A stretch of DNA of 24,493 nucleotides. Source: a virus. The position numbers were made by a program, and so were the translations under genes. The stretch's first letter is position 1; the number at the start of each line of letters is the position of its first letter. Where the stretch lies: positions 1-24,493 of the IMG/VR virus record IMGVR_UViG_3300045119_000366; one strand, given 5' to 3'. Below are positions 811 to 21,562 of the stretch, in pieces. Under the pieces are notes generated by a model. That model worked only from the letters and a program-made list of their open reading frames with translations, had not been told where the DNA came from and did not search any database.

Positions 811-2097
811 TCAACCTTCAGATTCGACGGCTGACTCTGCCATCTCAGCGACTGCCTCAGCGTCCGTGAATGACTCCGGATCGATCTCCTGATCTGGGAT
901 CGACTTGGCATCGTACTTGACGATTAGGTGCTTGTCGAGCAGGTTCATGCAGTGCTCGTAGAAGGCGGTGTCTCCCGTGAAGAACTCACTGAATTTCCCG
1001 GCACGAAACTGGAGATCATCTTTCACCTCGATCGTCTGGTTCCCCTTCTCATCCGTCGATTTGACCATGGGAACCTTGTACATGTGCATCCATCCGGTCT
1101 TCTTCTTGATCTCTCCGCGATGGTGCAGATAGTCTCGGATGCTGTTCGCATCGTCGATACCGTTCGAGAAGAGGATGTCAAACTCACATGCACGCAGAGG
1201 AGGTCCGAGTCGACCCTTGACGACCTTGGCCCGAGTATGCACCCCGGTCACGACCACGTCCCGTTTCTTCTCCTTCTTCTCTTTCTTGTCCTTCTTACCC
1301 TTCTTCTCATCCTCACTGTCATCGTCATCATCGTCGACGATCGCGGCCTCGACTGACTTGAGCTCGGTCGATCTGAAGAGACGCACGCGCACGGAGGCAT
1401 GGTAGGGGACGGCCTTACCACCCGGTGTTCCCATGGGATCTCCGAACCTGACCCCGATCTTCGTCTTCATCTGGTTCGTGAAGACGAGCGTCACCCTCTC
1501 ACGACCCACCGTCTTCGTCAGCTTTCGCATCATCTTGGCGATCGCCTTGGCCTGCAGACCGACTCGGGAGTTGGGATCCCAGTCGCCCTCCAGCTCAGCC
1601 CGTGGAGGAGTCGCGGCGATGGAGTCCCACACGATCGTGATCACTCGCTTCACGTCCTTGGCACGGGCCAAGTTGATCACTTTCTCGATGTTCTCACCGA
1701 CCGCCTCCACCGATCCGCACTGGAGGTAGACCAACCTGCTCAGATCCAGACCGACCCGCTGCGCGAACTCCGGGTTCAGAGCATTCTCCTCGTCAATGTA
1801 GACGGCGAGACCACCCTTACGCTGTGTGTTCGCGAGAATGTGGGTCACGAGGAGAGACTTTCCAGTCGCCTCCTCACCCATGATCTCAGTGATCTTCCCG
1901 ACAGGAACACCACCGTTCCTCCGATTACAGATGATGTAGTTGAGGAGCGTGCTGCCCGTGTCGACGAAATCCTTGACATCTGTCGGATTGTCCTCATCGC
2001 TCGCCAGCGACCAGGCCATCTTCTCATCAGTGTCCTTGTTGAGAGCGTTGATCAGAGCCTTGCTGATCTGTAGGACCTCGTCCTCCTGCTTCTTCAT
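811..2097 (-). CDS. recA: RecA/UvsX-like recombinase with a charged insertion, 428 aa
   Basis: ATP-dependent strand-exchange protein for phage recombination and recombination-dependent replication. Walker A is GEEATGKS (residues 74-81), followed by the RecA-type IDEENALNPEFAQRVGLD. Walker B is VITIVWDSI (D158). The L2 region with its NQ pair (FTNQMKTKIGVRF, about 207-219) and GTPGGKAV follow. HTRAKVVKGRLGPPLRACEFDI matches the conserved RecA beta-strands near the end of the core. Between two of those strands, at residues 250-279, sits an insertion of about 30 residues: an Asp run followed by a Lys/Glu run. The C terminus is acidic, as in other RecA proteins. The start has a good Shine-Dalgarno (GAGGAAGG) and overlaps the stop of the upstream 166-aa gene (ATGA). 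It lies in one operon with the gp32-like protein. The family call is secure; RecA versus UvsX subtype is not resolved. Confidence 0.95.
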   Translation of the reverse strand: MKKQEDEVLQISKALINALNKDTDEKMAWSLASDEDNPTDVKDFVDTGSTLLNYIICNRRNGGVPVGKITEIMGEEATGKSLLVTHILANTQRKGGLAVYIDEENALNPEFAQRVGLDLSRLVYLQCGSVEAVGENIEKVINLARAKDVKRVITIVWDSIAATPPRAELEGDWDPNSRVGLQAKAIAKMMRKLTKTVGRERVTLVFTNQMKTKIGVRFGDPMGTPGGKAVPYHASVRVRLFRSTELKSVEAAIVDDDDDDSEDEKKGKKDKKEKKEKKRDVVVTGVHTRAKVVKGRLGPPLRACEFDILFSNGIDDANSIRDYLHHRGEIKKKTGWMHMYKVPMVKSTDEKGNQTIEVKDDLQFRAGKFSEFFTGDTAFYEHCMNLLDKHLIVKYDAKSIPDQEIDPESFTDAEAVAEMAESAVESEG

Positions 2098-2597
2098 CAG
2101 GCCTTCCTCACTGTGTTCTTCAACTCTTGAAGCATGAAGACGAGGTCGTCAGGATCGTATTGGATGGGATTTTGGAAGAAGTGGCTGATGCTGTCTTTCA
2201 CCTCTTCCACGCTGGTGAAAAAATTCTCACAGAGGACAGTCCTGATCGGAGAGTTGCTCGTGTCCTTGATGTCGACCGTCAGGGCTCGTTCGAAGTGACT
2301 GACAGTCACGCGCAATGTTCCTCGCTCATACTGACACTTGTCGATGAAGTTTCCGAACGGATTGTCAGAGGCGAACTCCCTCCTGCCCGGATCGTCGCAG
2401 GGAGAAAGGTTCCGATCAGAGATGAAGAGAGAGTCAGGAGTCACAGGCAGTGTCACCTGCCGATCTCCCAAGATCGCGTTAGGATTGATGATCTTGTCGA
2501 TCTCTATCTTGTTGGCACCCGCCCTCTTGATCCCCTCGACGATCAGCCCATCGAGTCCTGGACTCAGGTCATGAATGCGAAAGAAAGAGCCCATCAC
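2097..2597 (-). CDS. Unknown protein between SSB and recombinase genes, 166 aa
   Basis: No family is recognised. The start overlaps the stop of the gp32-like gene (2594-2597) and the stop overlaps the start of the RecA-like gene (2097-2099). Such double coupling is strong evidence that it is translated and suggests a stoichiometric partner of these two proteins. The protein is mixed alpha/beta with no membrane segment. Residues 30-60 look strand-rich (INPNAILGDRQVTLPVTPD), and the C-terminal 40 residues contain amphipathic helices (EEVKDSISHFFQ, DDLVFMLQELKNTVRK). In T4 the loader UvsY bridges gp32 and UvsX, but I see no sequence likeness that would justify that name. A mediator role is inference from location only. 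Confidence 0.8.
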   Translation of the reverse strand: MMGSFFRIHDLSPGLDGLIVEGIKRAGANKIEIDKIINPNAILGDRQVTLPVTPDSLFISDRNLSPCDDPGRREFASDNPFGNFIDKCQYERGTLRVTVSHFERALTVDIKDTSNSPIRTVLCENFFTSVEEVKDSISHFFQNPIQYDPDDLVFMLQELKNTVRKA

Positions 2598-3526
2598 TCA
2601 TCATCTCCTGCCAACTCTCCGAAGGCATCATCGATGCTCTGGGTCCCCACGGTCGCCGCCTTCTCGTTCGAGTGAGTCTCAGCCTTCTTGGAAGAGGGCT
2701 CCTTTCCTTCCTTGCTCCCACTGTACTTCTCAGTTCCACCGCCCACGGAGGCCTCAACCTCCCCGTTGCCCATCCACTTCCTGAGCATCTTCTCGACCTC
2801 AGAACTGGGCACCGCCGGGTACACGTCCTTGATGTTCTTGATCTTGGAGATGATCTCTGCGGAAAACTTCTCATCCTTGCTGATGGGCTTCGCCTTGATC
2901 CCGGCCTTGATCTTGATTGCGGGAAAGCTCTTCGTATTTCCCTTCTCTCCCGGCTTCGCGAAGCTGACGTGCAGGTCGTACGCCTTCTTCGGATTCAGGA
3001 GGATGGTCAGGATCTTCTTGACGTCCTCCTCACCAGGATCGACGCCACACTCCTGCATGCGATCCGGATCGAGAGCCTCAGAGAGGATCTCGGTTCCCTG
3101 GTTGGGAGTCACACCCCAGAACCAGGGTCCCGTCACGACCTCAGTCTTACCGTCAGGACCCTTCGCACGTTCGACCATGGGCACGAAGACGCGGGCCTTC
3201 GCCTGGATCTTCTTGAAGAGCTCCCAGTCGGCCTTGCGGGTCGCCTCTGGCTTGTCCTCTCCATCCGGACCCTTCCAATTGCGCAGTCCTTCCGCGAAGT
3301 CGCAGATGGCACAGTCTTCACCGAAGTTCTTGCTGGGGCAGAGGATCGATGTGTTCTCACCGATCTCGTAGTGGAAGTGCAGCTCGATGAACGTCTCGTC
3401 ACCGAAAGGGTACGCGAGCAGTCGTACGTCGTGCTCATCGCGCGGCTTCCAGATGTCCTTGGCCTTGTCCGTGCGCCTGTTCAGACCTGCCAACTTGGCC
3501 TTCAGCTCAGTGATCGTCATTCCCAT
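2594..3526 (-). CDS. gp32: T4 gp32-like single-stranded DNA binding protein, 310 aa
   Basis: Binds and protects single-stranded DNA during replication and recombination. The N-terminal region ends in a zinc-binding pattern: H50-x12-C63-x8-C72-x2-C75 (CPSKNFGEDCAICDF). This is nearly the spacing of the T4 gp32 ligands (H64, C77, C87, C90). The C terminus is acidic (DDAFGELAGDDE), as expected of the SSB tail that recruits replication partners, and is preceded by a Ser/Lys-rich flexible linker (about 245-295). Its length is close to T4 gp32 (301 aa). A strong Shine-Dalgarno (AAAGGAG) lies upstream; either of the two Met codons at residues 1 and 3 could be used. It is the first gene of the cluster leading to the recombinase. 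Confidence 0.9.
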   Translation of the reverse strand: MGMTITELKAKLAGLNRRTDKAKDIWKPRDEHDVRLLAYPFGDETFIELHFHYEIGENTSILCPSKNFGEDCAICDFAEGLRNWKGPDGEDKPEATRKADWELFKKIQAKARVFVPMVERAKGPDGKTEVVTGPWFWGVTPNQGTEILSEALDPDRMQECGVDPGEEDVKKILTILLNPKKAYDLHVSFAKPGEKGNTKSFPAIKIKAGIKAKPISKDEKFSAEIISKIKNIKDVYPAVPSSEVEKMLRKWMGNGEVEASVGGGTEKYSGSKEGKEPSSKKAETHSNEKAATVGTQSIDDAFGELAGDDE

Positions 3527-3558
3527 GTTCGTTCTTCTCCTTTGTCAGTCGTCACTTA

Positions 3559-4242
3559 TCAGTTGTTCCTGAGCCCCACACGAGGGCGCATATAATTAGG
3601 TTGTCCTGTTCCATCCCGTCCCTTTGCCGAGCATCTGATCAGCTCTTTTACGTACTCTTCTCGAAGTACGTAACGTGGGGTCCCACTAGAGATCCGATGG
3701 AACTTGAAGGCGAGATCGTACTGACAGCGTGGGACCATGATCCATCCTCTTGGGAGGACGAGCACCATGGCGACGTACTCAGCGAGGACGAGAGAGGGAC
3801 GGCACAGTCCATCGATGAGATCGAAAACAGGAGCCGGCAGACAGGAGAAGAGACCTGATGAGATCTCGCCTCTCTTGATCCGATCGAGCTGATCTATTTT
3901 TAACAGAGATCGAAAACCACGCTCTCCCAGGGAGAGACAGATCTCTCCGACAAATCCTCGACTCTCGTTTCCCAACCTAAAGCGCGTTTCCCCTTCCAAG
4001 CTCTTCACCTCATGCCCCAACTCAGGTACGTCGACGCTGTCAGAGTGACCCACAGACATGGGAGGCAGTCCATTGTGGACCCGCCAGGCACGCTCACCGC
4101 AGCCCTCTCCCTCCCTCATGTCAGTGGGATGATATAGGACAGATTCGCTGGGAGTCCACAGTCCTGCGACTGTCCCGGAGAGGGCAGCTCCTAACTCACA
4201 GGCTCCTAGGAAGAGGCTTACGAAGGCGCGTGACGTGCCCAC
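3559..4242 (-). CDS. Uncertain ORF, possible unknown protein, 227 aa
   Basis: This is the only long open frame between the gp32-like gene and the 1211-aa gene. The C-terminal 120 residues look protein-like, with alternating hydrophobic helices and aromatic residues (LLKIDQLDRIKRGEI, YVAMVLVLPRGWIMVP, KFHRISSGTPRYVLREE). The N-terminal 90 residues are Gly/Ser/Glu-rich and less convincing, so the true start may be one of the internal Met codons. Codon choice includes more TTA, CTA, AGG and NNT codons than neighbouring genes, which may mean recent acquisition or no coding at all. No strong ribosome binding site is visible and no family is recognised. A 9-bp inverted repeat lies near its 3' end. 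Opposite-strand reading frames here are less protein-like. Confidence 0.5.
   Translation of the reverse strand: MGTSRAFVSLFLGACELGAALSGTVAGLWTPSESVLYHPTDMREGEGCGERAWRVHNGLPPMSVGHSDSVDVPELGHEVKSLEGETRFRLGNESRGFVGEICLSLGERGFRSLLKIDQLDRIKRGEISSGLFSCLPAPVFDLIDGLCRPSLVLAEYVAMVLVLPRGWIMVPRCQYDLAFKFHRISSGTPRYVLREEYVKELIRCSAKGRDGTGQPNYMRPRVGLRNN
3648..3673. repeat. 9-bp perfect inverted repeat, possible hairpin
   Basis: TTACGTACT at 3648-3656 and AGTACGTAA at 3665-3673 are perfect complements separated by an 8-base loop (CTTCTCGA). No T-run follows on either strand, so it is not a standard terminator. It lies within the uncertain ORF, upstream of the gp32-like gene in the direction of transcription, so it could be an operator or an RNA hairpin in the SSB/recombinase mRNA. 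Confidence 0.45.
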
Positions 4243-4285
4243 GTTCTATGTAATATGTCGATTGGCAGAAGGAACAGAATCTGTC

Positions 4286-7200
4286 TCACTCCTGCCTACC
4301 GGGACGGCGCGGATCTCCGACGGACCTCGCATAGGAGACGGGCTCGTCCCTGTCGTCATCTCTCACTCGAGACTTGGCAGACGACCAACTAGATGAACCG
4401 GCGCTCAGTCCAGAGTGAGAGTCCCCGATCCCCGTGAATGGTCCCATCTCCTTGACGATGTGCTCGATGGCACGTTCGAGGACAGGTGGTTCCGCGCCAC
4501 CACTGCGAGATCGACCGATGTCGTTGATCACGTACAGTGGACCCCTCTTCATGAGATTTCCCGAGTGGAAGTCACCGAAATCGATCCCGAGGTGCTTGAG
4601 CTGAGGGATGATCTTGTCGATCTGAAAGTGCTTCAGCTGGGCCATCACCCTCTTGGTCTCCGTCTCCACTTCACGCTCGACCTCCTGGTCCTGCGGTCCA
4701 CCTCCACCGACGGGCGCGCTCGGACGAGCCTTGGCCGTGCTGGCTCGGAGATTGGGAGCATTTCCCTTCGTCATGACGTCAGGCGCGACTCCATGCGAGT
4801 TTCCCGGCCTGATGTTCGCGTATGGCAGTCCACGTCGCTTCCGGACATCCCGTTCGATCCTGTTCCTGATCATCGCCGTGATCTTCTCAAAGGATCCGTA
4901 GAACACTTCTGCGGCGACGGTCCCCTTCTTACCATCAGGCTCCTCGAAGTAGTTCACGAGACGATCGAACTCATCAGCCTCATCATCAGAGAGTGGTTCG
5001 AGCTGTTCCTGGATCGTCCCGTACACGGGCATCGTCGTGCCAGGAGTCTGCTCGAACCTGAAGACGTCGAAGATCTTGACGATGTTCGGCATGCCACGGC
5101 CCTTCTCCTTGAGCAGGTTGCTCGTGCGTGCCTCCTGGGCGTCGGTCGTCACCTTGAGCACGAGTCCATCCTTGATCAAGTAGGCGACGCCCATCATCCC
5201 CTTTCCGAGTCGTCTCAATGAGGGGACGAAGATCCCCTTCTTGTCCTTGAGCTTCTTGGAGTTTGCCACGAGGACTTTCATCGCACCTGCCAGTCCACCG
5301 AGTTTATCCAGATTCGGAAAATCTGCTTCATTCATCTTCAACTTTACCTCCGCGATCGGTGGTTCTGATCCAGGAGACTCACTGCGTGAACCCAAGTCGA
5401 TCACGACGTAGTCTGACCCTCTCTTCATGACATTTCCCGAGTGCAGGTCATCGTACTTGATCCTATTCGCCTTCAGCTCGTCCAGGATCTCCTTGAGCTG
5501 GAACCTCTCTGCGAATGAGAGGAACCCAGGAAGGAGGGAAGAGTCGTACTTCTTCACTTTCTTGACGATCCCGTTCCAATCGCCTTCCTTCATATTGGCA
5601 AGGGCACCCGATTTGACGATCAGGGTGTCCATGATGGAGAACTTGCGTTCCTCATCGTCACTCATCGGAGAGAGACGTTCCTCCACGATCCCGTATGCGG
5701 AGATGTCAGGAAACCTGAACACGTCGTAGATGTGGACGATGTGCTTTGAGTTCTTTCCCTTGATGTGGTTTGACGCTCTCGCCTCAGTCGGATCTTTCGT
5801 CAGCTTGAGGATGACGGACTTTCCATTGTACTGTGCCTCATACGCCATGCCGTTGTCGCCGCCGCCGATCCCCGTCCTCTTCGATAGGGTCACACCCCGT
5901 CGACCGAGACGATCGATGTTCGATCCCAGGGTCTTGTCCATACGATCCCATGTCGACTCGTCGTCTTCCTGGATCCTCTTCCGTGAATTCCTCTTCATCT
6001 CAGACACGGTCGACTTCATCTCCTTACGCATCCTCCTATAGATCGATGAGAACTCGTCGGAATTCGAGACCAGGTGCGGGTCCATCAGCTGCGAGACCTT
6101 CTTCTTGTCGTTCTCCAAGAGGGACGTGCGGACCGCTGTGGCTGACACACGCCCACCCTCTGACGTCGACTGATCGGGCATCTCTTCGACAACGGCAAGT
6201 GAGGGATCAAACGACATGCCCGGCTCTTGAGGACGAGAGAGCATGCGTCTCATGTCGGAGATCCGATCGCTTCCGACGACGATCGTCACGGCTGTCCCGG
6301 ACTTCATGACACTGTCTCCCTGATCGATCAAGTTTCCCAGGAGACCGGGGACGTAGCCGCTGGATTTTCCGTCGATCTCGGCAGGGTGTATCTCGACACG
6401 AGCCTGCATGTCAGGCAATGATTTCCTGACGATCTCCTCACGCAGGTCCATGGAGAATGGATCGCGCGCGTCCCTCTTCCCATTTCCTGCGATGAAGACG
6501 ATGACCTTGGAGAACCTCTTCCCCAGCTTTCGCATGAGGGCACCGTGGGCCTTCGTGAACGGCTGGTAGCGTCCGATCGTCACTCCGACCTGGTCGGCCT
6601 TGGTCTCAAGCAGGGGGCGCTCCTGGATGGAGCGCTGGAGCTTCTCGATCCTGTTCGGACCCATCGCTACCTGCAGGATGAACCGCTCACCCATCCTGGA
6701 TCGACCGGACCCTCCGATCATGTCGAGGGTATAGCGATAGACACCGAGCAGGCTGCTGGCCTCCGAGAATGCCCGCTCAGTGCGTTGGCTGATGATCGGA
6801 TCGAACTCCTGACGATCGGTGGAACTCGCCCAGTCCTCGTGCAACGCGTTGAGCTCACATCCAAACTGCTCGACGACCGCGCGAGATCGATCGATCGCAC
6901 CTGGGGACGGGGGTTTCGATGAGAGGTAGGAGTCCAGGACCTCCTGCAGTCCTCGCCCAGGAAGTCTCAGGAGCACGCGGGAGAAGGACGGTGACTTTGG
7001 AGAGCGATCACCGAGTCCCTCTTCGAGCAGTGACCATGACAGGCGTGCCATCAGTCCTGGACGCCAGTGTCCATCTGACTCAGTGAGGCCGCGACCCAGT
7101 CGATCCCTCCAGCACCACAACCGACGATTGAGCGCCGTGAACGACTCTCGATCCACGATCTTGCACATGGCACCCGTGTTCAGGTCACGCAGGACGACTC

Positions 7201-7921
7201 CCTCGACCTGTCCACCTCCGAAGTGAGATCGGAGCGCCTTGACAGACTCGAGCATCGAATTCCTCGTGAGTCTTCCCCTGAAGACCTCGTGTACGGGAAG
7301 GACCGGCTTGTGCGTCAGGATCCAGGGACCGGGAAGTCCACCGATCGAACGATCGAGATCCATGACGATGCGGGATGAGAGACCGGGATGGGTCACTCCG
7401 CCTGGCATGAGCACACCGTGGACGACGATGGCCTCCGGACCGTACGGGATGGAGTTCGGGATCCGAGTGTGCAGCACGTCCGCCCCAAAGACAACATCAT
7501 TCTGGACGAACGGCTTGGGGACCCTGAACCATTCGACGATCCTGTCGGATCGAGACTCCAGGGCCTCATGGGCGAGCCTGATGGACTCGTGGGAGCTCAG
7601 TGGAGACCACTCTCGCGAACTGTACCTACGCGGAGAGTTCTTTGACTGCACCCAGAGCCTCCTGTCATCATCCACCCCGAATACCATGCGGACGGCCCCG
7701 TCGATCTTCTCAGAGATCTCGACTGTCCCGCGACGCAGTCCCTCGGTCCAACGATCGACCTCATCGTCACCCAGGTCATCAAGGTGGGGAAGACGATCTG
7801 GAAGTGGCTTACGAGATCCGGGAGGCAGCGGATATCCCGGGATGCCCCTGTTCCGTGGGCCTCCCTGGGGCACGCCCATGGACATGAACGTGTCTCGGAC
7901 GAGCTCGTGAATGTGATCCAT
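4286..7921 (-). CDS. 1211-aa fusion: ligase-type nucleotidyltransferase + NMNAT-fold domain + two kinase-like domains
   Basis: Four enzyme-like domains are visible. (1) Residues 60-275 resemble the covalent nucleotidyltransferase domain of RNA/DNA ligases: motif I EKIDGAVRMVFG (candidate lysine K72), motif III-like DVVFGADVL (142-150), motif IV VEGVVLRD (239-246) and motif V MCKIVD (252-257). (2) Residues 445-615 look like an NMNAT/cytidylyltransferase fold: GRYQPFTKAH (450-459, the TxGH-type motif) and SATAVR (593-598, the IS(T/A)xxR-type motif). (3) Residues 668-850 are protein-kinase-like: glycine loop GIGGGDNGMAY, K706, catalytic DLHSGN (D825, N830) and metal-binding DLG (D842). (4) Residues 900-1150 repeat this: GKGMMGVAY, K923, DFHSGN (D1117, N1122) and DIG (D1134). 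All key residues are kept, so all four may be active. Substrates are unknown. RNA end repair, NAD metabolism and modification of host proteins are possibilities. The start codon is ATG with a hairpin over its Shine-Dalgarno. Confidence 0.9.
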   Translation of the reverse strand: MDHIHELVRDTFMSMGVPQGGPRNRGIPGYPLPPGSRKPLPDRLPHLDDLGDDEVDRWTEGLRRGTVEISEKIDGAVRMVFGVDDDRRLWVQSKNSPRRYSSREWSPLSSHESIRLAHEALESRSDRIVEWFRVPKPFVQNDVVFGADVLHTRIPNSIPYGPEAIVVHGVLMPGGVTHPGLSSRIVMDLDRSIGGLPGPWILTHKPVLPVHEVFRGRLTRNSMLESVKALRSHFGGGQVEGVVLRDLNTGAMCKIVDRESFTALNRRLWCWRDRLGRGLTESDGHWRPGLMARLSWSLLEEGLGDRSPKSPSFSRVLLRLPGRGLQEVLDSYLSSKPPSPGAIDRSRAVVEQFGCELNALHEDWASSTDRQEFDPIISQRTERAFSEASSLLGVYRYTLDMIGGSGRSRMGERFILQVAMGPNRIEKLQRSIQERPLLETKADQVGVTIGRYQPFTKAHGALMRKLGKRFSKVIVFIAGNGKRDARDPFSMDLREEIVRKSLPDMQARVEIHPAEIDGKSSGYVPGLLGNLIDQGDSVMKSGTAVTIVVGSDRISDMRRMLSRPQEPGMSFDPSLAVVEEMPDQSTSEGGRVSATAVRTSLLENDKKKVSQLMDPHLVSNSDEFSSIYRRMRKEMKSTVSEMKRNSRKRIQEDDESTWDRMDKTLGSNIDRLGRRGVTLSKRTGIGGGDNGMAYEAQYNGKSVILKLTKDPTEARASNHIKGKNSKHIVHIYDVFRFPDISAYGIVEERLSPMSDDEERKFSIMDTLIVKSGALANMKEGDWNGIVKKVKKYDSSLLPGFLSFAERFQLKEILDELKANRIKYDDLHSGNVMKRGSDYVVIDLGSRSESPGSEPPIAEVKLKMNEADFPNLDKLGGLAGAMKVLVANSKKLKDKKGIFVPSLRRLGKGMMGVAYLIKDGLVLKVTTDAQEARTSNLLKEKGRGMPNIVKIFDVFRFEQTPGTTMPVYGTIQEQLEPLSDDEADEFDRLVNYFEEPDGKKGTVAAEVFYGSFEKITAMIRNRIERDVRKRRGLPYANIRPGNSHGVAPDVMTKGNAPNLRASTAKARPSAPVGGGGPQDQEVEREVETETKRVMAQLKHFQIDKIIPQLKHLGIDFGDFHSGNLMKRGPLYVINDIGRSRSGGAEPPVLERAIEHIVKEMGPFTGIGDSHSGLSAGSSSWSSAKSRVRDDDRDEPVSYARSVGDPRRPGRQE

Positions 7922-7924
7922 GTG

Positions 7925-7943
7925 GGAGGTATCTATGTCCTCC
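7925..7943 (-). promoter_or_regulatory. Hairpin sequestering the Shine-Dalgarno of the 1211-aa gene
   Basis: On the minus strand GGAGG (7943-7939) is followed by nine bases (ACATAGATA) and then its exact complement CCTCC (7929-7925), three bases before the ATG. GGAGG is the only strong ribosome binding sequence for this gene, but it is about 17 bases from the start codon, further than usual. Pairing could either hide it or shorten the distance to the start. A translational control role is inferred; only the complementarity is seen. Confidence 0.45.
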
Positions 7944-7954
7944 GTCAGCGACGA

Positions 7955-8308
7955 TTATGGGATCACGCTCAGATGCATCGGAGTCGCGGTATTCGCGCGA
8001 CGGTAGATCAGTAGCTGTCCCTCAGGATCTCGACGATCGACGATCGTCCGGATGTCCTTGACGTCATCTCGGGTCTGACGACAGAGCTCGATCGTCGTCT
8101 TGATCCCCTCGCAGATTCCCGTGAGACGCTCCTCGATCTCAGGAGAGAAGTGGGCCAGGATGGTCGGTCCACCTTCCTTGTGTGCCCTCTTTCGCATGAT
8201 GAGCCTGATGCAGCCCTTGGCAAGCTCGACGAAGGCGACAGAAAGTCCCAGGAGGATGGGCAACAGGAGGTTGACTGAGGGTGCCTGTGTCACTGCTTCA
8301 GTTTCCAT
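7955..8308 (-). CDS. Small membrane-anchored protein, 117 aa, unknown function
   Basis: After a short N-terminal stretch there is one hydrophobic segment (LLLPILLGLSVAFVELAKG, about residues 14-32) followed by basic residues (IRLIMRKRAHK). This predicts a single membrane span with the long C-terminal part on the cytoplasmic side. The rest (about 50-117) is charged and helical (IEERLTGICEGIKTTIELCRQTRDDVKDIR), with coiled-coil character. I chose the Met at 8308 because a strong Shine-Dalgarno (GGAGGAG) lies about 8 bases before it; a frame extending upstream to 8401 exists but overlaps the previous gene more. The 11-base overlap with that gene implies coupling. An i-spanin-like or membrane-scaffold role is conceivable but unsupported. 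Confidence 0.7.
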   Translation of the reverse strand: METEAVTQAPSVNLLLPILLGLSVAFVELAKGCIRLIMRKRAHKEGGPTILAHFSPEIEERLTGICEGIKTTIELCRQTRDDVKDIRTIVDRRDPEGQLLIYRRANTATPMHLSVIP

Positions 8309-8819
8309 CTTCATCTCCTCCGAAAAAGATCTCGTCGTCAGCATCGTCATCTGACTCATCCTCATCATCGGAGGACGGATCAAAATCGATCCCTCCGTCA
8401 CCGATGATCGACGCTATCAGCTGTAGGAAATCCGAGTCCTGAGGCTCGAAGCACTCACTGCTCGGATAGTCCACCGTCTCATGCACGTAGAACTTCTTCC
8501 AGACAGAGGGCAGCACGGGCATGTTCTTGACATCTTCTGCACCGCCTCTCCGGGTCGTCCCATCCTTTCCGAATATCTGCCAGGCGCCGCGGCCGAGATC
8601 GCCCGCGACGTCGGTGGTCTTGATCAGGTTCATGACAGCCTTCTTCTCATCGGAAGAGATGGGCCACTTCTCGACCTGGAGGTCAGAACCATCTCCCGAC
8701 TCTCCATCTGAGAAGTGTGGCATCTCCTCGACCTTCGAACCCTCACGATCCCACTTCGCCGCGATCCGCGGGTGGTGGATGTGCATGAAGGCGGCTTGTT
8801 TCTTGCTGGAATATGGCAT
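8298..8819 (-). CDS. Phage protein with 'SKKQAAFMHIHHPRIAAKW' N terminus, 173 aa
   Basis: The N terminus MPYSSKKQAAFMHIHHPRI is typical of small phage proteins of unknown function that begin with M-P-x-x-S-x-x-Q-x-x-x-hhxx-x-P-x-hA-x-x-W. I use this to place the start at 8819 rather than at the upstream GTG (8852), which would overlap the preceding gene. The middle region includes a segment with GAWQIFGKDGTTRRGGAEDVKNMPVLPSVWKKFYV. The C-terminal 35 residues are almost wholly acidic (SSDDEDESDDDADDE), which would suit binding to basic proteins or nucleic-acid mimicry. Position between two other small genes gives no functional clue. The 3' end overlaps the membrane protein gene. Confidence 0.75.
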   Translation of the reverse strand: MPYSSKKQAAFMHIHHPRIAAKWDREGSKVEEMPHFSDGESGDGSDLQVEKWPISSDEKKAVMNLIKTTDVAGDLGRGAWQIFGKDGTTRRGGAEDVKNMPVLPSVWKKFYVHETVDYPSSECFEPQDSDFLQLIASIIGDGGIDFDPSSDDEDESDDDADDEIFFGGDEDGN

Positions 8820-19354: not shown

Positions 19355-19409
19355 TCGATTCTCCTTTGGGACTTCAGGTAAGTAGTGTCAGGGAATAAAA
19401 TGAGAAGGA

Positions 19410-19481
19410 GCGCCTGGAGGGAATCAGACCCCCGACCACCGGATCATTACTCCGATCGCTCTATCACTGAGCTACAGGCGC
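19410..19481 (-). tRNA. tRNA-like gene, apparent anticodon AAT (Ile), atypical
   Basis: Acceptor arms GCGCCTG and CAGGCGC pair perfectly. The D arm is GCTC-AGTGATA-GAGC. The anticodon arm folds as a 6-bp stem (ATCGGA/TCCGGT, one T-G pair) with loop GTAATGA; with T at position 33 the anticodon reads AAT, isoleucine by the standard code. The T stem is GGGGG/CCCTC, but the loop reads TCTGATT instead of the usual TTCGATT, so positions 55-56 look swapped. No CCA is encoded. A34 is unusual for bacterial tRNA-Ile, so identity and function are uncertain. It begins 5 bases after the preceding tRNA-like element and lies in the long gap upstream of the gp26-like gene. Confidence 0.65.
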
Positions 19482-20878: not shown

Positions 20879-21562
20879 TCACTCAGGGATAACTTCGAAG
20901 GCCGAGATGCGCTTGGTGTCCGTCCACCCAGAGGCGGAATAGATTCCTAGGTGCGAGATCCCACAGAACTGTCGATGTTCGGCGGCACTGCCCGTGTGAC
21001 CTGCACAGAAGAATGAGTTTCCCACGTCGTACGGTCCGCCAGTCGGATTGGCATGACGAGGATCGTCGGACGTCAGATCCATGTAGAAGAGAAAGAGCAT
21101 GGCCGATGTGGACGAAGTCCCCAACTCAAAGCTCTTGATGCTCGTCCAGACAGGATCGGTCTTGAACATCCTGACCGCATTCCAGCCGTTGACCGCGACA
21201 TGAGGCCAGTCCCAGACAGAGGCACCGTTCACCCGGGCGCACGCTCCGGTGAAGTTCGTGCCCGACCAGATGTCGACGGTCCCGACAGGTGGGATGCCGA
21301 CGCAGTCCGAGAGACCGACCGTCGTGAATCCCGCGCGCGGTTGCCAGGCACACCAACCGTGGACAGGATATCCCTGTCCGACAGAGAACGGATCGTACGG
21401 ACCGAACAGCCCACTGCAGAGGAAGGGCTCATTGAACCCATCTTCTGGATTGAAGACGGGATTCGAGACAAATGCCTGCATCGACTTACCGATGTCGTCG
21501 ATCGCAGGCGTCCCACATGCGATCGTCGCAAAGATGAACAGGGCGATCAAGTTACGGATCAT
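20879..21562 (-). CDS. Secreted Cys-rich lipoprotein with crystallin-like motif, 227 aa
   Basis: The N terminus MIRNLIALFIFATIAC is a lipoprotein signal peptide: basic start, hydrophobic core and lipobox T-I-A-C with C16 as the lipidated residue. The mature part has six further cysteines (C49, C71, C87, C108, C186, C200), suggesting up to three disulfides and hence a location outside the cytoplasm. Around residues 95-115 the segment VDIWSGTNFTGACARV resembles a Greek-key repeat of beta/gamma-crystallin or inhibitor-I36 type. The protein is otherwise aromatic and Gly/Trp-rich, with many strands. It is not a known tail part. It could be a superinfection-exclusion or host-surface-altering lipoprotein, or a virion-associated decoration. 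The start has an AGGAG site and follows the 78-aa gene directly. Confidence 0.75.
   Translation of the reverse strand: MIRNLIALFIFATIACGTPAIDDIGKSMQAFVSNPVFNPEDGFNEPFLCSGLFGPYDPFSVGQGYPVHGWCAWQPRAGFTTVGLSDCVGIPPVGTVDIWSGTNFTGACARVNGASVWDWPHVAVNGWNAVRMFKTDPVWTSIKSFELGTSSTSAMLFLFYMDLTSDDPRHANPTGGPYDVGNSFFCAGHTGSAAEHRQFCGISHLGIYSASGWTDTKRISAFEVIPE

Follow-up and report, generated by a model that had tools for sequence, protein, structure and literature searches.

Passages of Iyer et al. (2017, PMC5512222) describe injected polyvalent proteins of phages and conjugative elements that carry kinases lacking the C-lobe, InPase domains and Pol-beta nucleotidyltransferases. Phage RNA repair and NAD salvage are presented as counter-defence in passages of two other papers (PMC9503650, PMC7824862). 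The available passages of these three papers describe no fusion of a ligase, a HIGH nucleotidyltransferase and a kinase. Known phages keep such activities separate or lack them. In the Kyanoviridae cyanophages, a ligase-like gene and a HIGH nucleotidyltransferase gene are found close together by uvsX and gp41, in a run consisting of an unassigned gene, the ligase-like gene and a cytidylyltransferase gene. Here we analyze IMG/VR record IMGVR_UViG_3300045119_000366 in its complete length of 24,493 bases (the window), which comes from an uncultured T4-like bacterial virus and is probably a piece of a bigger phage genome. One of its genes encodes a protein (P0001) in which an RNA-ligase-like domain, a HIGH nucleotidyltransferase resembling NMNAT and two kinase domains are fused. 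P0001 is the short member of a family of multi-enzyme phage proteins that had not been listed before. Both the folds of its domains and the strategy of joining many domains are already known; in the curated libraries searched, we found neither the combination nor, apart from weak RNA-ligase and APH/ABC1 matches, the sequence families of the kinase, the ligase and the Polβ-like domain. The family should surprise a phage–host specialist, although its functions are predictions from sequence and models.

The fused frame and its relatives

An initial annotation, made from the DNA letters alone, had proposed one open frame for the four domains. That frame is real: it starts with an ATG at position 7921, runs along the minus strand to 4286 and contains no internal stops. 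All the motifs and residue numbers that were named for it are located where they had been placed.

Distant relatives surfaced only when alignments were used as queries against viral contigs, and their architectures were read from hidden Markov model (HMM) scans of all fetched open reading frames (ORFs). As a single-sequence query, P0001 had no match among the viral contigs, nor among GenBank phages by tblastn at 1e-5, and the kinase alignment found 0 relatives in bacterial genome contigs. The initial annotation knew of no other protein with the full arrangement, but P0001 does not stand alone: seven other IMG/VR lineages have ligase, NMNAT and one or more kinases in a single frame. These proteins are up to 2507 amino acids (aa) long, with one to four kinase copies in varying order (Table 1). 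Homology between P0001 and the 1904-aa protein of L015/L023 extends across nearly the entire length. The simpler pairing of ligase with NMNAT, which the initial annotation mentioned for phage proteins, also exists, in L062.

Some relatives have taken in further enzymes. The InPase domain, present in L012 only, matches PF18823 at 1.9e-33, and the SLT lytic transglycosylase of L030 matches PF01464 at 6.4e-27. The other labels were given by eye: Polβ from a G-S ... D-x-D pattern, PD-(D/E)XK at the C-terminus, and ART-like segments in L012, L015 and L024. None of these pieces of the relatives matches Pfam, and RlaP (PF10127) does not match the Polβ domain in 10 records. A ligase gene adjoins a Polβ-like gene in about 15 further viral contigs, and the two are fused in L033/L034. 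Separately, ORFs that look ART-like by eye occur beside a standalone kinase relative in an uncultured phage of 484 kb, and in Atu_ph07 beside the ligase/Pol-beta-like genes. It had been suggested that a single polypeptide might phosphorylate and then nucleotidylate one substrate. A domain set this mixed and variable speaks against a single reaction of two steps in fixed order; because the number and order of the kinases vary and Pol-beta nucleotidyltransferase, InPase and SLT domains are also fused in, separate activities fit better than one assembly line.

The same comparisons bear on whether the frame is an assembly chimera, a risk raised at the outset, or a decayed gene. It does come from a single metagenomic contig, and it has two atypical active-site letters. 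On the other side, the frame is stop-free, the kinase residues are intact, the same domains are fused on seven other contig lineages, and the locus is syntenic with L023, including tail genes, PolA, HD, the fused protein, gp32 and UvsX. Because of this synteny and the fused relatives on independent contigs, a chimera is very unlikely and not borne out, and we give either artifact or decay almost no weight.

Ligase, nucleotidyltransferase and kinase domains

The ligase region (residues 38-430) was modeled by AlphaFold from 32 window- and locus-derived sequences, with a predicted local distance difference test score (pLDDT) of 92.6 and a predicted template modeling score (pTM) of 0.85. Foldseek matches the model to the fungal tRNA ligase Trl1 (6n0v, 1e-5), T4 Rnl1 (5tt6, 9.7e-5), T4 Rnl2 and a Naegleria RNA ligase, with probability 1.00 for Trl1, Rnl1 and Rnl2. 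Since the TM-scores are modest (about 0.33-0.41) and DNA ligases are further down the same list, RNA-ligase superfamily is the safe label. As modeled, the region combines a nucleotidyltransferase of the RNA-ligase fold with a C-terminal extension made largely of helices. K72 lies in EKIDG, with EGVV at 240-243 and CKIVD at 253-257. In the ligase alignment, K72/D74/G75 of motif I and E240/G241 of motif IV are kept in every ungapped row, and K254 of motif V is present in 31 of 32 rows. Residue 148, which we take to be in ligase motif III, is D in P0001 and E in 30 of the 31 ungapped rows of aligned relatives. Of the ligase motifs first proposed, I, IV and V are kept. The ligase profile had no match by sequence among PDB chains, and the family has weak RNA-ligase matches in Pfam; the assignment therefore rests on the structure model, the motifs and these Pfam matches.

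The following domain (residues 440-643) matches PHROG 395 at 2.5e-14 and Pfam CTP_transf_like (PF01467) at 2.2e-4. A profile of six family members finds NadM (2qjt, 5.8e-10) and the MJ0541 NMNAT (1f9a, 1e-9). The NCBIfam NMNAT models give a best E of 2e-8, but at 34 bits this is far below the cut-off of 397. GRYQPFTKAH, ending in H459, and SATAVR (593-598) are present as originally described, but the HxGH that should accompany them is not: P0001 has TKAH (T456), whereas 5 of 5 aligned relatives have HxGH. Because TKAH replaces HxGH, we name the domain NMNAT-like rather than NMNAT. A plain NadM-like NAD+ salvage enzyme with accessory domains, refilling NAD+ after host depletion, would agree with NadM and archaeal NMNAT being the best profile matches, and passages of PMC9503650 describe phage NAD salvage. 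It is a long shot nevertheless, faced with the TKAH, with no NadV, Nudix or NadR kinase domains identified among the window proteins scanned, and with a ligase and kinases that it leaves unexplained.

The two kinase regions are diverged tandem paralogues (BLASTP 2e-14). The first has K706, D825-x4-N830 and DLG at 842-844; the second has K923, D1117-x4-N1122 and DIG at 1134-1136. Across 17 aligned kinase copies, the Lys, the Glu, D-x4-N and D-x-G never vary, which upholds the early observation that both domains keep their catalytic residues. For kinase 1, the AlphaFold model (pLDDT 93, pTM 0.88) matches protein kinases in the PDB by Foldseek (best 6.3e-7, probability 1.00, TM-scores 0.4-0.5) and viral protein kinases, including those of phages, in BFVD. 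The catalytic Lys, Asp and Asn, the DxG Asp, the glycine loop and the N-lobe fold are all found. By DSSP of the model, the chain stops shortly past D-x-G, and kinase 1 therefore lacks most of the usual C-lobe. The fold evidence covers this model, and kinase 2 is assigned as a paralogue of it. We conclude that the P0001 kinases are protein-kinase domains with a complete set of ATP and phosphotransfer residues and with most of the C-lobe missing. A tree of the kinase copies, aimed at orthology, is mostly unresolved with long branches. All four folds of the initial annotation are retained, two of them through structure models that adopt the expected folds, one through a profile and one as the paralogue of a modeled domain.

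Kinase copies flank the nucleotidyltransferases in most members of the family. They might act in cis to switch the ligase, NMNAT and Pol-beta domains on or off, with the phosphorylation control of MenT-type nucleotidyltransferase toxins as a precedent (passages of PMC11375011). However, most ligase/Pol-beta phage loci lack a kinase match in the fetched DNA, and the NMNAT-ligase protein of L062 has no kinase. Such self-regulation seems to us distinctly improbable.

Gene neighborhood and proposed role

Elsewhere, the window contains T4-like genes (UvsX, gp32, and T4 baseplate and tail-tube proteins), a family A DNA polymerase and an HD gene. Homologues of both gp32 and UvsX are downstream of the fusion in the fetched DNA of six of the seven other lineages (L012/L029, L015/L023, L017/L061, L018, L025 and L030); the DNA of L019 ends too soon. 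For the ORF adjacent to the fused gene (P0004), support for a PD-(D/E)XK reading is weak, consisting of a single-sequence HMM i-E of 0.0086 in the C-terminal part and an E-x-K by eye.

A few other features of these loci were observed. In L012, the fused gene has a TubZ/FtsZ-like tubulin gene immediately upstream. By eye, L019 has a gene resembling it and L023 a short, apparently degenerate relative, whereas we saw no such gene in the window. Between the fusion and gp32, L012 and L023 each encode a protein with HExxH (HEVGH/HELGH) that looks metallopeptidase-like by eye. The structural region of the window includes a tRNA-Ile, and a secreted, lipoprotein-like ORF without Pfam or PHROG matches is found amid its tail genes.

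Table 1. Coordinates and domain order of the fused gene, its neighbors, its relatives and other genes discussed in the text.
Feature	Record	Position	Strand	Domain order or basis
Fused gene, 1211 aa	window	4286..7921	minus	ligase - NMNAT-like - kinase - kinase; stop-free frame
RNA-ligase-superfamily nucleotidyltransferase core, residues 41-290 (K72, K94, D148, E240-G241, K254)	window	7052..7801	minus	AlphaFold model, Foldseek, residue census
Ligase C-terminal extension, largely helical, residues 291-430	window	6632..7051	minus	model DSSP; aligned in relatives
HIGH-superfamily (NadM/NMNAT-like) nucleotidyltransferase, residues 434-642, GRYQPFTKAH and SATAVR	window	5996..6622	minus	PHROG, Pfam, profile, NCBIfam
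Protein-kinase-fold domain 1, residues 664-863 (K706, D825, N830, D842)	window	5333..5932	minus	conserved residues, fold model
Protein-kinase-like domain 2, residues 882-1156 (K923, D1117, N1122, D1134)	window	4454..5278	minus	paralogue of domain 1, long insert
Neighboring ORF, 227 aa, possible divergent PD-(D/E)XK-like partner	window	3559..4242	minus	syntenic position of L012:11453-12376
Upstream small ORF, hydrophobic segment	window	7955..8401	minus	related to gene preceding L030 fusion, BLASTP 8.9e-7
gp32-like single-strand DNA-binding protein	window	2594..3526	minus	PHROG 1192 2e-5; homologues in six relatives' contigs
UvsX/RecA-like recombinase	window	811..2097	minus	Pfam RecA 3e-53; 63% identical to L023
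tRNA-Ile, AAT anticodon	window	19407-19481		ARAGORN
Secreted, lipoprotein-like ORF	window	20879-21562		signal-like N-terminus ending in C
Fused protein, 2507 aa	L012			InPase - ligase - kinase - NMNAT - kinase
Fused protein, 1904 aa	L015			ligase - kinase x3 - NMNAT - kinase
Fused protein, partial	L017			kinase - ligase - kinase - NMNAT - kinase - PD-like
Fused protein, partial	L018			ligase - kinase x2 - NMNAT - kinase - PD-like
Fused protein, 2262 aa	L019			Polβ - ligase - kinase x2 - NMNAT - kinase - PD-like
Fused protein, one phage or close variants	L024-L026			Polβ - ligase - kinase x2 - NMNAT - kinase
Fused protein, 2012 aa	L030			Polβ - ligase - SLT transglycosylase - kinase - NMNAT - PD-like
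Fused protein, 703 aa	L062			NMNAT - ligase
TubZ/FtsZ-like gene	L012	1640-2836		Pfam Tubulin 1.1e-10
Gene resembling that of L012	L019	4191-5378		by eye
Short, apparently degenerate TubZ/FtsZ-like relative	L023	8725-9492		by eye
Metallopeptidase-like gene	L012	12282-12800		HExxH
Metallopeptidase-like gene	L023	15584-16114		HExxH
ART-like ORF	L006 (LR756508)	3001-4462		by eye
ART-like ORF	L004 (Atu_ph07)	6561-8404		by eye
Ligase and Pol-beta-like genes of cassette	Pseudomonas phage Paride (OR805295)	21839-25115
P-loop-kinase-like gene gp129	HTVC008M (L007)	7715-8377		sequence inspection

The jumbo phages Atu_ph07, Phosso and the PA5oct/Paride group have a ligase gene beside or near a Polβ-like gene. 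In PA5oct, the Polβ-like protein EST35_0231 (HMM 3.9e-17) is annotated 'structural protein, ESI-MS/MS', and the ligase gene, EST35_0228, is three genes from it. Paride likewise has the ligase and Pol-beta-like genes of the cassette.

The company that the gene keeps suggests an unpackaged intracellular repair machine, an alternative that is possible though doubtful. The ligase would mend nicked RNA or DNA by the replisome, and the NMNAT-like and kinase domains would tune nucleotide pools or phosphorylate ends. That the relatives' Pol-beta nucleotidyltransferase and PD-(D/E)XK-like nuclease would join the ligase in mending is a part of the alternative that we hold equally in doubt. The gene's neighbors are UvsX, gp32, DNA polymerase A and HD genes, its ligase fold is RNA-ligase-like, the separate cyanophage genes are also beside uvsX and gp41, and in the pelagiphage HTVC008M the gene gp129, P-loop-kinase-like by sequence inspection, sits between a ligase-like and a cytidyltransferase/NMNAT-like gene. 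However, it is hard to see what the relatives' SLT transglycosylase and ART-like segments would do in a repair enzyme, the Pol-beta partner in PA5oct is annotated from mass spectrometry as a virion protein, and the kinases have the protein-kinase fold rather than that of a P-loop polynucleotide kinase.

We consider it an even bet that P0001 is instead a multi-enzyme factor of the polyvalent type, at work early in infection and possibly carried in the virion. The most likely use of such a protein would be host takeover or the repair of RNA under attack. Separate enzymes on one chain would then be deployed together early in infection, perhaps delivered by the virion, and would share a chain because the activities must arrive in the cell together. 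The ligase would form Lys72-AMP and then join or cap RNA ends; by analogy, this could be tRNA repair of the T4 Rnl1 type following attack by a host anticodon nuclease. The NMNAT-like domain may make NAD+ or a similar dinucleotide, refilling a pool depleted by host defences. The kinases could phosphorylate host proteins, in the way of the T7 kinase, or the adjacent nucleotidyltransferase domains. A counter-defence role, as had been proposed, is plausible. In favor of a polyvalent-type factor are the extra enzymes fused into the relatives, the closeness of ligase-like and NMNAT-type genes in cyanophages, and that of ligase and Pol-beta genes in the other viral contigs. The SLT fusion and the mass spectrometry annotation of the Polβ-like partner in PA5oct favor virion association, and the peptidoglycan-cutting domain in its chain suggests that at least the L030 fusion is ejected from virions. 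A fuller scenario seems unlikely, namely that a virion tool chain of C-lobe-less kinases, RNA ligase and NMNAT-like enzyme enters as one molecule, reprogramming host proteins and repairing defence-cut RNA before phage expression. We are as skeptical of its extension to the relatives, where the chain would add a template-independent nucleotidyltransferase, a nuclease and a peptidoglycan hydrolase.

Several observations weigh against a polyvalent-type, possibly virion-carried factor. There is no direct evidence for P0001 or a fused relative in virions, and the PA5oct ligase EST35_0228 lacks a mass spectrometry annotation of the kind that many of its neighbors have. The gene of P0001 sits among replication genes, as the separate cyanophage genes do. 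With D148 and T456 being atypical against E and H in the relatives, the activity of one or both of its nucleotidyltransferases may be reduced. In the 24-kb window, we identified neither of the usual partners in RNA repair, a P-loop polynucleotide kinase and a phosphatase. Finally, the Kinase-PolyVal and ART-PolyVal Pfam models have no match in the window or in the records of seven relatives, and the RlaP model has none in the P0001 family.

Comparison with known systems

Compared to T4 Rnl1 and fungal Trl1, P0001 shares the predicted fold, motifs I, IV and V and the helical C-terminal extension. It differs in having an identity of about 10-17% to them, a D for E at the apparent motif III position, and a predicted ligase that is fused to NMNAT-like and kinase domains. 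Compared to NadM (MJ0541 and Francisella NadM), which are the best PDB profile matches, the family has GRFQPFHxGH, NPF(S/T)xxxR and ISxTxxR; the differences are the TKAH of P0001 and that no Nudix domain was identified in the scan above. T7 gp0.7-type kinases are likewise phage-encoded with a protein-kinase fold, and are connected to P0001 by a weak PHROG match (E 0.04) and by the phage kinases among the BFVD neighbors. Their sequence is not close, however, and the P0001 copies are in tandem inside a multi-enzyme chain with the C-lobe largely missing.

P0001 has at least two unrelated enzymatic domains in one long phage protein, as polyvalent proteins of phages and plasmids do. As in the proteins of PMC5512222, so far as its passages describe them, unrelated enzymes are strung on a long chain and the kinases are without most of the C-lobe; the relatives add the InPase PF18823, Pol-beta nucleotidyltransferase and, in one case, peptidoglycan hydrolase. 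In contrast, those passages have no RNA-ligase or HIGH nucleotidyltransferase domains, and their few mentions of 'ligase' concern 2H/RNA repair. A Pfam scan of P0001 found no domain characteristic of the class. Because Kinase-PolyVal, ART-PolyVal and RlaP match nothing, we describe the family as sharing the build of polyvalent proteins, with membership unproven.

The cyanophage ligase-like family is PF19782/DUF6267 (S-RIM2, 4.9e-95). It has relatives in 471 phage records, annotated 'hypothetical' in the matches listed, and we found no paper naming DUF6267 or the cyanophage 'cytitidyltransferase'. Its sequence similarity to the P0001 ligase family is weak, with a best HMM match of 3e-4 (C48C1, in a 16-protein test set) and one row of alignment A7 reaching DUF6267 at 0.023, so the link rests on shared motifs and neighborhood. 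The cyanophage genes are separate, and no kinases were seen with them. They share with P0001 a ligase-like KxDG ... EGxV ... KLVDR, a HIGH nucleotidyltransferase neighbor and a place in the replication region by uvsX. In the manner of a Rosetta stone, the fusion links the widespread cyanophage DUF6267/'cytidylyltransferase' pair to polyvalent-type effectors, and the fused proteins provide a handle on the role of that pair and on virion delivery of RNA repair enzymes.

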